Assembly (NCBI GenBank): GCA_005788175.1
Contig: SXYX01000012.1
Location: 62,001 to 126,000 of the forward strand
Length of the DNA stretch: 64,000 bases
Direction of reading: 5' to 3'
From: Acidobacteriota bacterium
GTDB lineage: Bacteria; Acidobacteriota; Holophagae; Holophagales; Holophagaceae
Part shown: positions 8,371-56,155 of the stretch, piece after piece
Layout of the letters: each line of letters begins with the position of its first letter
Position numbering within the stretch: position 1 is the first letter of the stretch
Notes under the pieces: generated by a model
Database searches by the model: none
Seen by the model: the letters and a program-made list of their open reading frames with translations, nothing else
What the model was told of the DNA's origin: nothing
Position numbers and translations under genes: made by a program

Positions 8371-8438
8371 TGTAATCTCCGACTTTCAGATTAGCGCTTA
8401 TATTAGTCTTTTATGGACTATATAAATTCAAACAAATT

Positions 8439-8468
8439 AAAAAGGAGGGCCTGTAGGCCCTCCTTTTT
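8439..8468. terminator. Bidirectional intrinsic terminator
   Basis: A perfect 13-bp stem (8439-8451 with 8456-8468) has a 4-base loop. It starts with an A-run and ends with a T-run, so it can terminate in both directions. It lies between the M13 peptidase gene (minus strand, ending at 8484) and the start of the Nfu gene, so its clear job is ending the peptidase transcript. Confidence 0.9.
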
Positions 8469-8483
8469 AGAATCCAGAGCCTT

Positions 8484-17853: not shown

Positions 17854-17950
17854 TCATACTTTCACTTGATAAGGAGCTGTAGAGTCGCTGATATTATCTT
17901 TAGATAAGTATAGGCTAAGGGTTTATTAAGAAATCAGTTGAGTTTGAAAT

Positions 17951-17980
17951 TGAAAAAGGGGGCCCGCGCCCCCTTTTTCA
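17951..17980. terminator. Bidirectional intrinsic terminator
   Basis: A perfect 13-bp stem (17951-17963 with 17968-17980) has a 4-base GC loop and A- and T-runs at its two sides. It lies just downstream of the decayed gene 18020-18768 (minus strand), so that gene once had a proper transcription unit of its own. Confidence 0.88.
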
Positions 17981-18019
17981 ATGAACCCTCTAGAAATTTA
18001 CCAGGTCGTTAGCAGGAAC

Positions 18020-46600: not shown

Positions 46601-48454
46601 ATGCCCAATGATCTTTCAGGTTCCTTCTGTCAGAGCTGTCTTTCCTGGAATAGTGGAGAACGAGCAACCTGCAGTAAATGTGGAACTAAACTTTTAATTG
46701 TCACCGGTGAAGAGCGATGGGATGAGTCCATTGACGAACAAAGTGAAGATCTAGAGGAGCACTTTCTTGAACGTATTACTGTCGCCGAAGAAACACTACG
46801 CAGAGCTGAAAGTTATTTAGAATCGATCTCAGAACAATTAGGAAAGCTTGAACGTGCCGAGATTGTCCTACGTAATGGAATGCTGGCTCTTGTTCAAGAA
46901 ATGGAACAACATAAACAGCTCAATGTTCTTGCTTTCAAGGATCGATGGGAAGATCTAGTCGACGATAATCTGCATCTCATTAGCGCAAGAGAAGTTTTTG
47001 GTCGCTATCGGACTCGCATTGTTCCTCTCACCCGTCCCAAAAATCTAGCCCTCATCAAACGAGCCTTGTTAGAAACTAGTGGATTCCTTGAGCAAAGTGA
47101 TTTGAATGGAGCCTGTAAGCGACTCCAAAAGGCCTTATTGCTTGAGCCCAAAAATTACGAACTTCTTTTTCTAACAGCCTCACTTTTGGAATCCGATTTT
47201 CAACTCCAAGAGGCTGAAGGTATGGCCCGAAAAGTTGTGACCTTAAGCTCTCGTCACTTTGAGGGCTGGATGTTACTCGGCAAACTTTATCTAGAAATCG
47301 GAGAGAAGCCGGAGCAGGCAATCGTAGCCCTTAATATGGCTGCTGATTTACGACAAGATGAAGCAGAACCTAGACTTCAATTAGCTACTTTGCTCGAAGA
47401 AACGGATGACTTAGAAGGAGCACTCACCGCAGCGCTAGAAGCTGTGAGTAGACGGAGAGATGGCGAAACGCTCTCGAGATTGGGGGAAATTTATCTTTCG
47501 CGCAGTGATGGGGAACGAGCACAAGAAATTTTCCAAGAAGCAACGTCTCTCTATCCGAGTGATGTCATGTTACGCGAGCGACTGGCTGAATCTTATTTGC
47601 TTCAAAATGAACGGGCCAAGTCCTATGAAATACTTCACGGTCTTTTAGAAAAATCACCTCATAATCGTTCCCTACTTCTCATGTTAGATGCACAAAATCA
47701 CCGCCAATTCCGATCGGCTCGCGACGGATCCAACCTAACCAAAGCGCTTCTCAATGAAGCCGAAGATCTTATCGAAGAAGGTAACTATTCCCTCGCTGAA
47801 CCGTTGCTAAAGAAAGCTCGTAGGCAATTCTCTAGTGACCGTCTTGAGTGGCTCGAAACACTTCTTCAGTTCAAGAAAAATCCTGGCTCAGGCTTAACAA
47901 AGGCTATTAAATTTTCTTCCTCTGAACATCATCCCCGTTTATGTTTTTCAGCTCTACACCTATCTATGGAATACTCAATTAAAGAAAAACAGAATGTTCA
48001 AATCGTTGAGGCACTCAAAGGGTATCTTCAAAAATATCCTCAAACATCGGGGGCCTGGGAAGCGGTTCTAGCCTTCAAGTCATTTTTAATGATGAATGAT
48101 GAAATTACTGAAGATGACCTTGATGAAGTGAAAAATCTATACCTACATCCCCTTCCTGGACAAGTATCACGAGCAAGGACTTTACTTTGCCAAATACTCT
48201 TAAGCCTTAACCATCCCGAGCAGATACCTTCTCTTTTGGAGCCCGTCCTCAACCAGGATCCGGGATTGCTCGATTTTCTCCAGTTAGGAATGGCCTTTGC
48301 AGCTCTTGGTAAGAAGAAAGAAGCCATCGCAACCCTGCGAGAGGGCCTATCGTTCTACTCTAATGAATTCTCGGACAAACAAGCCCTCAATTTGAAGACC
48401 CAAATGGAAGATCTACTGAAGGATCTTTCAAACGGCAACCCTTCCAAAGCTTAA
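46601..48454 (+). CDS. TPR-repeat protein with N-terminal zinc ribbon
   Basis: A 617-residue protein. It opens with a zinc ribbon (C10, C13, C24, C27 in FCQSCLSWNSGERATCSKCG), followed by a coiled-coil-rich part at about 55-135, then a long array of TPR-like helical pairs (about 150 to 600) such as NGACKRLQKALLLEPKNYELLFLTASLLE. It is a likely scaffold for protein-protein binding. The target is unknown. It lies between pckG and the SUF operon. I see no signal peptide, so it should be cytoplasmic. Confidence 0.82.
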   Translation: MPNDLSGSFCQSCLSWNSGERATCSKCGTKLLIVTGEERWDESIDEQSEDLEEHFLERITVAEETLRRAESYLESISEQLGKLERAEIVLRNGMLALVQEMEQHKQLNVLAFKDRWEDLVDDNLHLISAREVFGRYRTRIVPLTRPKNLALIKRALLETSGFLEQSDLNGACKRLQKALLLEPKNYELLFLTASLLESDFQLQEAEGMARKVVTLSSRHFEGWMLLGKLYLEIGEKPEQAIVALNMAADLRQDEAEPRLQLATLLEETDDLEGALTAALEAVSRRRDGETLSRLGEIYLSRSDGERAQEIFQEATSLYPSDVMLRERLAESYLLQNERAKSYEILHGLLEKSPHNRSLLLMLDAQNHRQFRSARDGSNLTKALLNEAEDLIEEGNYSLAEPLLKKARRQFSSDRLEWLETLLQFKKNPGSGLTKAIKFSSSEHHPRLCFSALHLSMEYSIKEKQNVQIVEALKGYLQKYPQTSGAWEAVLAFKSFLMMNDEITEDDLDEVKNLYLHPLPGQVSRARTLLCQILLSLNHPEQIPSLLEPVLNQDPGLLDFLQLGMAFAALGKKKEAIATLREGLSFYSNEFSDKQALNLKTQMEDLLKDLSNGNPSKA

Positions 48455-48494
48455 ATCAAGGAATCCTTGTATTTAGGGGTATGTCCTATATTTT

Positions 48495-48523
48495 TAATTG
48501 TGGACTTTTAAAGTCCACAATTA
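48495..48523. promoter_or_regulatory. Palindromic operator overlapping the sufB promoter
   Basis: A perfect 29-base inverted repeat (two 14-base arms, one central base) lies 28 bases before the sufB start. It is wedged between the -35 (TTGTGG, 48498-48503) and the -10 (TATACT, 48522-48527), covering nearly the whole spacer. A repressor there would block RNA polymerase. A Rrf2-type Fe-S sensing regulator (SufR/IscR) is the natural candidate but none is encoded in the window. The match to any published site was not tested. Confidence 0.7.
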
Positions 48524-48527
48524 TACT
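48498..48527 (+). promoter_or_regulatory. Putative sigma-70-type promoter of the SUF operon
   Basis: TTGTGG and TATACT, 18 bases apart, give a predicted start around 48534 and a leader of only about 17 bases before the sufB ATG. The overlap with the palindrome strengthens the call. Confidence 0.55.
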
Positions 48528-48550
48528 TGCTATATGAATATAGGTTGTTT

Positions 48551-49990
48551 ATGACCCAAGATTTGAGCACTCTGACAAGTCAGACATATAAGTATGGCTT
48601 TGTGACGGATATTGAATCTGAATCGGTCGCTGCGGGTCTTTCTGAGGACGTCATCCGATTGATTTCCGCTAAAAAGAAAGAACCTGAATGGTTGTTAACT
48701 TGGCGGCTCAAAGCCTATCGACACTGGCTCACGATGACTGAGCCGAAATGGGCTCATGTTCATTACACCAAACCGAACTACAACGAGATTGTTTATTACT
48801 CAGCTCCTAAACCTAAACAAGCGAAATATGCATCTATGGATGAAGTAGATCCTGAGCTTTTGCGAACTTTTGAAAAGTTAGGCGTTCCCATCCATGAGCA
48901 AGCTACTCTCGCTGGCGTAGCTGTGGATATTGTCTTTGATTCAGTATCTGTTACAACGACATACAAAGATCGTCTTGCTAAAGAGGGAATTATTTTTTGT
49001 TCCTTTAGTGAAGCCGTCCAAGAACATCCCGAGCTTATCAAGAAGTATCTCGGCACCGTTGTTCCTCCTAGTGACAACTTCTTCGCTGCTCTTAACAGCG
49101 CTGTCTTTACAGATGGATCTTTCGTATTTATCCCCAAGGGGGTCAAGTGTCCAATGGATTTATCCACTTACTTCCGCATTAACAATAAGGAAAGTGGTCA
49201 ATTCGAACGCACGCTTATCGTGGCTGAAGAGGAAGCCTCTGTAAGTTACCTAGAAGGATGTACAGCCCCTCAATTCGATACCAATCAACTTCATGCCGCT
49301 GTCGTTGAACTTGTCGCTCTTGATCGTGCAGATATCAAATACAGCACAGTCCAGAATTGGTATTCCGGCAACGAACAGGGCGTGGGTGGTATTTTTAACT
49401 TCGTAACAAAACGTGGTTTATGTAAAGGTGTAAAAAGTAAAATTAGTTGGACACAAGTTGAGACAGGGTCAGCTATTACTTGGAAATACCCAAGCTGCAT
49501 CCTGTTAGGCGATGAGAGCGTGGGTGAATTCTACTCCGTAGCTCTCACGAATCATTTTCAGCAAGCCGATACGGGTACCAAAATGATTCACTTGGGTCAA
49601 AACACCAAGAGTACTATTATCTCCAAGGGTATCGCAGCCGGAAAAAGTTCTAATGCATATCGAGGCCTTGTTCGTGTTTCACCCAAGGCTAAAGGAGCTC
49701 GCAATTTTAGTCAATGCGACTCTATGTTGATTGGTTCTCTTTGTAGTGCGAGTACATTCCCCTATTTAGAAATCAAGAATACATCAGCCAAGGTTGAACA
49801 TGAAGCAACGACAAGCAAAATTGGAGAAGATCAGATCTTTTATCTTCAGCAAAGAGGTATTAATCCAGAAGAAGCGATTTCAATGATCATTAATGGTTTT
49901 TGTAAAGAAGTCTTCCGAGAGCTTCCCATGGAATTTGCCGTGGAAGCTACTAAACTGCTTAGTCTCAAACTCGAAAATAGCGTTGGATAA
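48551..49990 (+). CDS. sufB: Fe-S cluster assembly scaffold SufB
   Basis: A 479-residue protein. It shows the SufB core: [23 protein letters not shown]-type block, [39 protein letters not shown] and the C-terminal [21 protein letters not shown]. SufB forms the SufBC2D scaffold for cluster assembly and binds the nascent cluster. I choose the ATG at 48551 because the frame upstream at 48527 starts inside the -10 box. It is the first gene of a compact operon with sufC, sufD, sufS, sufU and nfu. Confidence 0.96.
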
Positions 49991-50000
49991 AGGTACTAAG

Positions 50001-50753
50001 ATGCTTACGATCAGAAATTTATCAGCTACAGTTCAAGATACGCCAGTGCTCAAAGGTATTTCTCTAGAAGTTAAAGCTGGTGAAGTCCATGCCATCATGG
50101 GTCCTAATGGATCCGGAAAGAGCACCCTTGGCAAAGTCTTAGCGGGTCATCCTTCCTATGAAGTGACAGAGGGTGAAGCTATATTCCAAGGTAAAAATTT
50201 GTTTGATATGGAAGCTGATGAGCGGGCTCGTCAAGGCCTGTTCTTAGGATTTCAATATCCCATAGAAGTCCCCGGTGTCAGCAATTCACAATTCCTACGT
50301 ATGGCCTACAATAAAAGGGCTGAAGCATTAGGACAGGACGAACTTGATCCTCTCGAATTTCAAGATTTCATCCATACGAAAACATCTCTTGTAGGTATGA
50401 ATGAAAGCTTTCTGGATCGAAGTGTTAATGAAGGTTTTTCGGGGGGCGAAAAGAAGCGTAATGAAATTTTACAAATGGCTGTCCTTAATCCTGTACTAGC
50501 CATCCTTGACGAAACTGATTCTGGTCTTGATATTGATGCTCTACGAATCGTAGGAAGTGCCATTACACAACTTAGACGATCAGATAACGCCACTATTTTA
50601 ATTACCCACTATCAACGTCTTCTTGATCATGTCACTCCTGACTTTGTTCATGTATTACAGGGAGGTCGCATCATCAAATCGGGAGGCCCTGAACTAGCTG
50701 TTCGACTCGAAAAAGAAGGTTACGATTGGCTTCTCGAGGAAATCAACCTTTAA
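50001..50753 (+). CDS. sufC: Fe-S cluster assembly ATPase SufC
   Basis: A 250-residue ABC ATPase beginning [19 protein letters not shown]; Walker A is [16 protein letters not shown], the signature motif is [11 protein letters not shown] and Walker B is [16 protein letters not shown], all typical of SufC. It powers the SufBCD complex. I choose the ATG at 50001, 10 bases after the sufB stop, with AAGG upstream; a longer frame would overlap sufB by about 100 bases. Stop and the sufD start share a base. Confidence 0.97.
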
Positions 50754-51997
50754 TGGTTACATCCTTGGCTCCTCGCTTCCCTGCAGTCGAATTAAAGGCT
50801 GGTGCATCGCCCATTTGGCGAACTCTTCAACGACAAGATCAAGAGGTCTGGTCCTCAATGGCCTTCCCTACCCTTAAAGATGAAGATTGGAAATATTTTG
50901 ACTTAAGTCCCCTCCGAGATGTGACCTATGTTCTGCCTTCCGATCAGCGAGCTCCTTTATCGCTTCAGATTGAACCTTCAGCCCTTCGTCTTTATTGGAA
51001 TCAGGGGTGTCTCCAGATACCTACCAGCCTCCCCAAGGGCATTATTTTACGTCCTCTTGATCCGAAAAAACGATTGAGTTCTAAGCTAGATCAAGATTAT
51101 TTCTTCAGAATGAACCAAGCTTTTTTTTCAGAAGTGTATGAATTAAGAATCCAACAAAGTTTCGAATCTAAGGATCCTATTTATTTAGAAAATATTTTAC
51201 AAGGATCTGATGACCAGGTCAGTTTGGCTTTTTCTCGTCTACACATTGTTGTGGAATCAGGAGTTAAGGTTCAAATCGTTAATCGCTTTAGAGGTTCAAA
51301 TGCTTATCATCTTATCTCCGCAATTAGTTTCAAAATTCAGAATGAGGCACTTGTAGACCTTGAGCGCCTCCAATACGACTCAGCACAATCTTTTCATTTT
51401 TCCTACCTTCAAGCCCATATAGGGCGAGGGGCTCACTTGGGTGTGCGAACCGTGGGTCAGGGCTCGAGACTTCGCCGAGATGTCCCTCATATTCACTTGG
51501 AAGAAGCGTCCACCGTTGAATTGGACGGTTTATGTCTATTAAAAGACCAACAGCTTGCCGATACCCATAGTTTTATTCACCACGCTCATCCTCATGCACG
51601 ATCTCGACAACTCCATAAATGTATTGTTCAGGATCGTAGCAAAGCTATTTTCAATGGCCAAATTCTTGTCGCACTGAATGCTCAGCAAACAGACGCCCAG
51701 CAACAAAGTCGCAATTTAGTACTTGGTGATCACGCCAGCATTGATACTAAACCTCAGCTTGAAATCTACGCTGATGATGTGAAGTGCTCACATGGAGCTA
51801 CCATTGGTCAACTTGATCCAGATGAATTATTTTATTTACAAAGCCGCGGGTTCTCTGAATCTAGCGCTAAAGGACTTCTTACATTCGCCTTTGCCTCAGA
51901 TCTTCTTGGACATATCAGAGTCCCGATTCTTCAAAAAACACTGAAGCAAGAAATGATCGAACAACTTCATGTTCATACCCTAGGAGAACTCTCATGA
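50753..51997 (+). CDS. sufD: Fe-S cluster assembly protein SufD
   Basis: A 414-residue protein. The C-terminal half is the SufB/SufD beta-helix (QDRSKAIFNGQILV, DTKPQLEIYADDVKCSHGATIGQLDPDELFYLQSRG), and the N-terminal region (DEDWKYFDLSPL) is SufD-like. SufD completes the scaffold and helps iron entry. Start ATG overlaps the sufC stop by one base (TAATG), with GAGGA upstream, so it is translationally coupled. Confidence 0.95.
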   Translation: MVTSLAPRFPAVELKAGASPIWRTLQRQDQEVWSSMAFPTLKDEDWKYFDLSPLRDVTYVLPSDQRAPLSLQIEPSALRLYWNQGCLQIPTSLPKGIILRPLDPKKRLSSKLDQDYFFRMNQAFFSEVYELRIQQSFESKDPIYLENILQGSDDQVSLAFSRLHIVVESGVKVQIVNRFRGSNAYHLISAISFKIQNEALVDLERLQYDSAQSFHFSYLQAHIGRGAHLGVRTVGQGSRLRRDVPHIHLEEASTVELDGLCLLKDQQLADTHSFIHHAHPHARSRQLHKCIVQDRSKAIFNGQILVALNAQQTDAQQQSRNLVLGDHASIDTKPQLEIYADDVKCSHGATIGQLDPDELFYLQSRGFSESSAKGLLTFAFASDLLGHIRVPILQKTLKQEMIEQLHVHTLGELS

Positions 51998-53223
51998 ATT
52001 ACCAAGTAAGTGAGATTCGAAAAGACTTTCCTCTACTTGATAAGTCCTTTCATGACAAACCACTTCATTATCTTGATAGCGCTGTAAGCGGACAGATGCC
52101 CTTATCGGTTATTGAGCGCATACGTCAATATGAAATGCACGAACATACTAATGTTCATCGAGGTGTTTCGACCCTCAGCCAAGAGGCAACCGATCATTTC
52201 GAAGCGGCGCGAACAAACGTCGCAAAGTTTCTCAATACGGCCTCTTCCAAGGAAATTGTTTGGACTCGTGGAACGACGGAGTCCATCAATCTTGTGGCCC
52301 AAACATGGGGGCGTCAAAACATAAAACAAGGTGACGAGATCTGTTTAACTGAAATGGAACATCACGCCAATATCGTTCCTTGGCAAATGCTTGCTGAATC
52401 CGTTGGCGCCAGCTTAAAAATTATTCCTGTCGATGATCGTGGAGAGCTCTGCCTGGAAGAACTTTCCAAAGTGTTATCACCTAAAACTAAGCTTCTAGCT
52501 CTGACGCACGTCAGCAACGTACTAGGCACTATAAATCCCATCAAACAAATTATTTCGATGGCCAAACAACAGATTCCTTCTTTAACAGTTCTCGTTGATG
52601 GAGCTCAGGCCGTAGCTCATATACCCGTCGATGTCCGTGACCTCGATGTAGATTTCTATGTTTTCAGTGGACACAAACTCTCAGGTCCAACAGGTATAGG
52701 GATACTCTATGGTCGAGAGGCTCTTCTTGAGGCCATGCCACCATGGCATGGTGGGGGCAATATGATCCTCTCGGTGTCTTGGAATAAAACTACCTATATG
52801 GCATCCCCTGGAAAATTTGAGGCAGGCACTCCTCCTATCGCAGCGGCTATCGGACTAGGCGAAGCGATTAATTACCTATCCAAGTTGGATTTTAAAGAAG
52901 TCCATGCCCATGAACAAAAATTACTCAAGAGAGCCTCAGAAGGTTTGAAAAAAATACCTGGGCTTCGGATTCTAGGTGAATCTTCGGAAAAAGTTAGTGT
53001 GATCTCTTTTGTTGTAGAAGGGGTTCATCCTCACGACTTGGGAACATTGCTCGATCATGAAGGTATTGTCATCCGTGCTGGACATCATTGTGCACAACCC
53101 TTAATGGAGCGATATAAGGTTCCTGCTACTACGCGTGCTTCGCTCGCCTATTACAATAACGAAGCCGATGTGGATGCGCTCATTGAATCTACTCGAAAAT
53201 CAGTGGAGATGTTTCATGGGTAA
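51994..53223 (+). CDS. sufS: Cysteine desulfurase SufS
   Basis: A 409-residue PLP enzyme. The PLP lysine is K228 in FSGHKLSGPTGIG, and the catalytic cysteine is C366 in RAGHHCAQPLM, as in class II desulfurases. MEHHANIVPWQ and DGAQAVAHIPVDV are further signatures. It takes sulfur from cysteine and passes it to SufU. It overlaps the sufD stop by four bases (ATGA) and is overlapped by sufU. Confidence 0.97.
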   Translation: MNYQVSEIRKDFPLLDKSFHDKPLHYLDSAVSGQMPLSVIERIRQYEMHEHTNVHRGVSTLSQEATDHFEAARTNVAKFLNTASSKEIVWTRGTTESINLVAQTWGRQNIKQGDEICLTEMEHHANIVPWQMLAESVGASLKIIPVDDRGELCLEELSKVLSPKTKLLALTHVSNVLGTINPIKQIISMAKQQIPSLTVLVDGAQAVAHIPVDVRDLDVDFYVFSGHKLSGPTGIGILYGREALLEAMPPWHGGGNMILSVSWNKTTYMASPGKFEAGTPPIAAAIGLGEAINYLSKLDFKEVHAHEQKLLKRASEGLKKIPGLRILGESSEKVSVISFVVEGVHPHDLGTLLDHEGIVIRAGHHCAQPLMERYKVPATTRASLAYYNNEADVDALIESTRKSVEMFHG

Positions 53224-53662
53224 TCCACGGGAAATTTATCAACAGGTCATTCTTGAACATAATAAAAAGCCCCGTAATTTTGGAAAAATTGATGATTGTA
53301 CCCACCAAGCCGAAGGTCATAACCCGCTCTGTGGGGATCAACTCCACCTCACCCTCATAGTTAAGGATGAAGTCATCCAGGATATCCAATTCGAAGGTCA
53401 CGGCTGCGCTATTGATGTTTCTAGCGCCTCTCTCATGACGACGGCAGTCAAAGGAAAGAAGGTAGAGGAAGCCTTAAAACTCATCCACGGTTTTAGAGCA
53501 CTAGTTCGTGGTGAATGGAGTCTTTCTAAACATGGAGAACTAGGAAAATTAGTTGTCTTCGAAGGCGTCAAAGATTTACCGGTACGCGTGAAATGCGCTG
53601 TCTTACCTTGGGCCACTCTCCAAAGTGCTCTCAACGGCTCATCCATTGCATCCACGGAGTAA
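53216..53662 (+). CDS. sufU: SufU zinc-dependent sulfurtransferase
   Basis: A 148-residue protein. Zinc ligands and sulfur acceptor are in place: C39 and D41 (NPLCGDQ), C64 (GHGCAIDVSSAS) and C127 (VKCAVLPWATL). The insertion between domains typical of SufU rather than IscU is present (GFRALVRGEWS). SufU accepts persulfide sulfur from SufS. The start overlaps the sufS stop by eight bases. Confidence 0.95.
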   Translation: MGNPREIYQQVILEHNKKPRNFGKIDDCTHQAEGHNPLCGDQLHLTLIVKDEVIQDIQFEGHGCAIDVSSASLMTTAVKGKKVEEALKLIHGFRALVRGEWSLSKHGELGKLVVFEGVKDLPVRVKCAVLPWATLQSALNGSSIASTE

Positions 53663-53664
53663 CC

Positions 53665-54219
53665 ATGCCAAAAATTGCAGAAATTGAATATACCCCTAAC
53701 CCTAATGCTGTGAAATTTCTTTTGAAGGAGAGCGTAGCTTCGGGTTTTCCTAGAAACTTTACCTCGGCCGAGATTGCAGAGACAGATCCTCTCGCTAAAA
53801 GCTTATTTGACGTGGGGCATGTTCTATCTGTATACATGCAGGATAAATGGATCACCGTTACCAAAAATGATCAAACGACATGGACCGATCTTTTACCCAA
53901 ACTCGCTGCTCCTATTCGCTCTTTTCAAGTAAGTAATACTCAGGAAAGCCCTGCCCCTCCAAGAATCCCTAGTGATCTTTATGACCCTAATGATCCTATT
54001 CTTCAGAAGGTTCAGGCCATCCTGAATGAAACGATTTTGCCTGCTCTTGCCTCAGACGGAGGTGGACTTGAGGTCGTAGGGCGCCATGAAAAACAAATCT
54101 TGATTCGCTACCAAGGCGCTTGCGGAACGTGCCCAAGCAGTCTTACAGGCACACTGGCTGCTATTGAAAACCTCATCAATCAAAAGATTGACCCCGAATT
54201 AAAGGTTGTCACGGTATAA
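53665..54219 (+). CDS. Nfu-type Fe-S carrier protein (paralogue 2, SUF-linked)
   Basis: A 184-residue protein with the same two-domain plan as the protein at 7825-8370: Nfu_N (IEYTPNPNAVKF, then DPLAKSLFDVG) and NifU C-terminal domain with YQGACGTCPSSLTGTL. It directly follows sufU (two bases), so it delivers clusters made by SUF to apoproteins. GGAG precedes the ATG. Confidence 0.95.
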   Translation: MPKIAEIEYTPNPNAVKFLLKESVASGFPRNFTSAEIAETDPLAKSLFDVGHVLSVYMQDKWITVTKNDQTTWTDLLPKLAAPIRSFQVSNTQESPAPPRIPSDLYDPNDPILQKVQAILNETILPALASDGGGLEVVGRHEKQILIRYQGACGTCPSSLTGTLAAIENLINQKIDPELKVVTV

Positions 54220-56127: not shown

Positions 56128-56155
56128 AAAAAAGAGGCCTTTGGGCCTCTTTTTT
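56128..56155 (+). terminator. Intrinsic terminator after rpsA
   Basis: A 12-bp stem (56128-56139 with 56144-56155), a four-base loop and a T-run follow the rpsA stop by 21 bases. It separates the ribosomal gene from purT. Confidence 0.92.

Follow-up and report, generated by a model that had tools for sequence, protein, structure and literature searches.

A conserved dyad overlapping the sufB promoter in Holophagaceae: a predicted operator of an Rrf2-family Fe-S regulator

The region upstream of sufB in the 64-kb stretch of Holophagaceae DNA analyzed here (referred to as the window) contains a perfect palindrome whose position poses a question: is it an operator of the SUF operon and, if so, which regulator would bind it? 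The sequence, TAATTGTGGACTTT-T-AAAGTCCACAATTA, forms a perfect 29-bp dyad (window positions 48495-48523) in which two arms of 14 nt each (48495-48508 and 48510-48523) are 100% complementary around a 1-nt centre, exactly as the first-pass annotation of this DNA had described it. The palindrome is far above chance: in 100 trials with first-order Markov-shuffled windows, none with an arm of at least 14 and a gap of at most 1 was obtained, those with an arm of at least 12 occurred at 0.02 per window, and arms of at least 10 arose within the local 96-bp intergenic region in 0.075% of the shuffles. The other long perfect inverted repeats of the window (8438-8469, 17949-17982 and 56128-56155) are found with T runs and are probably ordinary intrinsic terminator stems.

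The palindrome lies in front of six genes of Fe-S cluster assembly (Table 1), among which the nfu-type gene may have its true start downstream of the ORF start. The spacer between the candidate -35 and -10 elements of sufB is 18 bp long. The palindrome had been said to fill this spacer; it does cover it entirely, but it also includes TTGTGG itself and the first two bases of TATACT. Twenty-seven bases, not the 28 given earlier, separate its end from the sufB ATG at 48551. The sufB promoter itself is plausible, but its -35 element is poor, and it was not called in a strict sigma-70 scan.

Table 1 Features of the sufB promoter region and the SUF operon (window positions), and Fur-family genes in the window's genome (G000)
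Feature	Position	Strand	Remark
TPR-repeat gene, upstream	46601..48454	+	stop 40 bp before palindrome
Promoter-operator block	48488..48528	+	37/41 positions invariant within genus
Perfect dyad 14+1+14, predicted Rrf2-family operator	48495..48523	.	27/29 positions identical in both congeners
Candidate -35 TTGTGG (weak), within left arm	48498..48503	+	from sequence
Operator core TGGAC-TTTTAAA-GTCCA	48501..48517	.	exact RisR consensus match; sole occurrence in 64-kb window
Candidate -10 TATACT, end of conserved block	48522..48527	+	invariant in three species, flanks divergent
sufB (SufB, NCBIfam equivalog), ATG start	48551..49990	+	
sufC (ABC ATPase)	50001..50753	+	
sufD	50753..51997	+	
sufS cysteine desulfurase	51994..53223	+	
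sufU scaffold / sulfur-transfer protein	53216..53662	+	
nfu-type carrier (Nfu_N + NifU domains)	53593..54219	+	
Fur-family gene (L181)	G000:C4:66923-67270		also in congeners
Fur-family gene (L183)	G000:C14:89500-89844		also in congeners

If the palindrome is a regulatory site, it should be preserved in relatives at the same position. The window's genome (G000; 893,751 bases, 84.86% complete) was compared with those of its two congeners (G001 and G002; both 1.2 Mb, 96-97% complete); from these values we infer that the organism may belong to UBA12189 ('Acidiparvus'), a freshwater genus with streamlined genomes of 1.12-1.37 Mb (PMC11561045). Within positions 48488-48528, 37 of 41 positions are kept in both congeners, against 9 of 33 in the upstream flank and 4 of 19 in the downstream flank. 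Genome-wide, a site with at most three mismatches in 23 occurs once each in G000, G001 and G002, always before sufB. In G002, one differing arm base breaks the pairing, so perfect symmetry of the outer arms is not a conserved feature as such; all three genomes retain the core TGGAC-N7-GTCCA.

Beyond the genus, the first set sampled comprised 26 further sufB upstream regions of Holophagaceae, and a related dyad, T(T/C)GAC-N7-GT(C/A), was present in the promoter in 24 of them. In these genera, the left half of the dyad is the -35 element, with TTGACA holding the place equivalent to TTGTGG. Since TTGAC doubles as the -35 hexamer there, only the right half-site counts as independent evidence in the other genera. 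The genus of the window shows a change from TTGAC...GTC(A/G) to TGGAC...GTCC(A) that is symmetrical across both halves, as predicted for an operator bound by a dimer. Conservation upstream of sufB in relatives, the check proposed in the first-pass annotation, was therefore found both within the genus and in almost all the other sufB promoters of the family that were checked, and the earlier picture of an operator overlapping the sufB promoter, at which a bound protein should block RNA polymerase, stands as a prediction.

Another question is whether the site resembles any operator already described. Footprinting of suf and isc promoters in Myxococcus xanthus gave the RisR operator as T(t/g)GAC-N7-GTCC(t/a), flanked by AT-rich sequence (PMC9973013), and the window core TGGACTTTTAAAGTCCA agrees with it wherever a base is specified. 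The arm sequence is therefore not an unpublished one, as had been supposed, and the Rrf2-type Fe-S regulators named for comparison were the right family. The type-1 site consensus of Escherichia coli IscR, ATASYYGACTRWWWYAGTCRRSTAT (as quoted in PMC3899308), fits the window site at 19 of 25 positions, and in 24 of the 26 other sufB upstream regions the best type-1 match falls exactly on the dyad, with scores of 17-20 out of 25; random 150-mers from the same loci, a pool that contains the sites themselves, gave a mean of 14 and a 99th percentile of 19. The site is thus a GAC-N7-GTC dyad with T(t/g) and C(t/a) flanks in AT-rich surroundings, and it lies in the candidate promoter of genes for Fe-S biogenesis, where it is conserved. 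It shares with the RisR site (group IS6; PMC9973013) the sequence, the AT-rich flanks and the location inside a suf promoter, and with the E. coli type-1 site an identical GACT-N5-AGTC core. It differs from the RisR operator in that the window dyad is perfect (14+1+14) and the Holophagaceae regulator gene is not beside suf, and from the IscR system in that the target is SUF, not ISC. The operator itself is of an already known Rrf2 (RisR/IscR) kind, with its binding predicted.

Which protein could recognize it? The first-pass annotation had noted that no such regulator is encoded in the window and had left room for a new one. The former is true, and in the window's own 85%-complete assembly no Rrf2 gene was found either; nevertheless, this does not indicate an unknown regulator: an orthologous Rrf2 gene is present in both congeners and nearly family-wide, and the block holding it is missing from the window's assembly. 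A single-copy ortholog was identified in 56 of 61 family genomes, and each congener has exactly one Rrf2 gene (L053 in G001 and L055 in G002). The five genomes lacking it are the window's own and four of one genus (G003, G013, G021 and G026), and in all four of the latter the dyad is missing from the sufB upstream region (L027, L028, L224 and L225). The dyad and the Rrf2 ortholog thus co-occur among the family genomes. At 30 of 30 ortholog loci examined from other genera, TTGAC-N7-nTC is present in the rrf2 promoter at -46 to -58, which suggests autoregulation. No dyad was found in the congeners' own rrf2 upstream regions; the putative autoregulatory dyad of rrf2 has been lost in the window's genus, a further difference from E. 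coli IscR.

The absence of rrf2 from G000 extends to its surroundings. G000 also lacks the xerD ortholog and the gene for a SAM-dependent methyltransferase that neighbours rrf2, and a 13-kb block of G001 (rrf2 flank, fabF, uvrB, accC and ileS) has no match in G000; the same block matches G002 over 12,999 bases with 77% identity. Search sensitivity is an unlikely cause, because the suf locus DNA of G000 was detected at 76-77% identity to the congeners (76.7% over 4.4 kb for G001). IleS is essential; therefore, the organism must possess the 13-kb block and, most likely, rrf2 as well. The missing rrf2 is best read as an assembly gap, the presence of the gene being deduced from the relatives, and this case illustrates that a regulator can seem to be lacking when the assembly is incomplete. 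Elsewhere in the class, two genomes of another family, G038 (L043) and G042 (L054), have a different Rrf2 gene directly upstream of sufB, with cysteines in the central loop, which suggests that one SUF regulator has replaced another during the evolution of the class.

The Holophagaceae protein belongs to the Rrf2 superfamily but falls short of the IscR equivalog. The G001 and G002 proteins score 91-102 bits with PF02082 (cut-off 30), and the two orthologs scanned score 106-115 bits with TIGR00738 (cut-off 73.3); the IscR model TIGR02010 ranks first or second among their NCBIfam matches, at 101.4 and 120.6 bits, far below its equivalog cut-off of 207.55. None of the IscR cluster ligands (Cys92, Cys98, Cys104 and His107) is conserved in 34 Holophagaceae orthologs, and RisR, with Cys92/102/108, likewise differs from the Holophagaceae Rrf2, which has no cysteine at the IscR ligand places. 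The 34 orthologs have instead an invariant Cys at the position equivalent to residue 71 of E. coli IscR and, toward the C-terminus, an invariant CX7CX2CXC motif followed by CX18C, with five to six invariant cysteines overall (L053, L055 and L185-L214). E43 is invariant, as in E. coli IscR, and the wing Arg59 (E. coli IscR numbering) is kept in 32 orthologs and replaced by Pro or Ser in the two congeners. Among 99 genomes across the phylum, matches beyond Holophagaceae end before the C-terminal motif begins. A literature search gave nothing on this Rrf2 subtype in Holophaga or Geothrix, and among the papers retrieved for C-terminal-cysteine Rrf2 proteins no title or abstract describes CX7CX2CXC.

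A precedent for altered cluster ligation is the IscR of Rhodobacter sphaeroides (Iron-Rhodo-box), a repressor in which the usual three cysteines are absent and the cluster is bound via a single cysteine, C142 (PMC4618611); its sites overlap promoters too, although it has one cysteine where the Holophagaceae Rrf2 has five to six invariant ones, including CX7CX2CXC. The earlier suggestion that the sensor could be new thus applies to the unusual cysteine layout of the predicted regulator, and not to the operator or the family, which are already known. We tentatively propose, with slightly less than even confidence, that a distinct Rrf2 subfamily controls SUF in Holophagaceae, in which the cofactor site has moved from the IscR loop to the C-terminal CX7CX2CXC (+CX18C), so that a classical RisR/IscR-type DNA site would be combined with a different sensing chemistry (another cluster type, or zinc/thiol); the loss of the wing arginine in the streamlined genus, together with its longer, more symmetrical operator, would then be a possible case of protein-operator co-evolution.

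Other explanations of the palindrome have to be weighed. The dyad could be bound by a regulator of another family, for example one of two Fur proteins, with Rrf2 not involved: G000, G001 and G002 each have two Fur homologs, which in G000, unlike Rrf2, are actually present. However, Fur/PerR/Zur boxes are GATAAT- or TTATAAT-like, with no resemblance to TGGAC-N7-GTCCA. The core matches Rrf2 operators exactly, its presence or absence tracks the Rrf2 ortholog across the family, and a like dyad is found in rrf2 promoters. Fur was rejected as the binder, as the site is not Fur-like and follows Rrf2, and we regard such a reading as very unlikely. It is most improbable that the repeat acts at the RNA level, as a terminator or processing hairpin ending the upstream TPR gene or as a leader structure. 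The TPR gene does end shortly before it, and RNA folding yields a 13-bp hairpin of -15.9 kcal/mol (z about -7), but no T tail is present on either strand, so the sequence does not have the form of a GC-rich stem followed by a T tract, the terminator scan made no call there, and Rfam returned no match to the palindrome. Transcription starting 6-8 nt past TATACT would leave the repeat untranscribed from the sufB promoter, its right arm runs into the invariant -10 element, and the arm base that differs in G002 breaks the pairing. The element of other genera is reduced to TTGAC-N7-GTC, which is too short to fold, with its promoter position unchanged. The RNA-level readings were rejected because of the missing T tract, the missing Rfam match and this short form elsewhere.

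A third possibility keeps the Rrf2 regulator as the binder and changes its action: it could activate, or act as an apo-form in the manner of E. coli apo-IscR at the sufA type-2 sites. IscR of E. coli both represses and activates, and the Holophagaceae Rrf2 does not have the canonical ligands; with Cys92, Cys98, Cys104 and His107 absent from the ortholog, it is less than certain that it senses clusters. We nevertheless consider this unlikely, since the site spans the -35 element and the spacer and reaches into the -10, where a bound protein would hinder polymerase, and its sequence is type-1-like. Moreover, the invariant residues include E43, through which IscR reserves type-1 sites for its holo-form and keeps the apo-form off (PMC3899308), and a site of this kind serves RisR in the repression of suf (PMC9973013).

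Taken together, the palindrome is, with high probability, the operator of an IscR/RisR-like Rrf2 Fe-S regulator that would repress sufBCDSU-nfu, where binding, sensing and the direction of repression are all predicted from sequence comparison. On the model of RisR and of type-1 binding by IscR, a cluster-loaded dimer of the regulator would bind the TGGAC-N7-GTCCA dyad and cover the promoter from the -35 element through the spacer to the first bases of the -10, thereby excluding RNA polymerase, so that the cluster-bound form would keep the SUF operon repressed. Shortage or destruction of clusters would leave the apo-form, which would release the DNA and allow expression of the operon. Such a circuit would extend the Rrf2 control of Fe-S assembly to Holophagaceae, including a lineage, probably a streamlined freshwater one, with one Rrf2 and two Fur genes found, and the operator-regulator pair may serve as a test case for Fe-S sensing by an Rrf2 protein that does not have the canonical cysteines for cluster binding.
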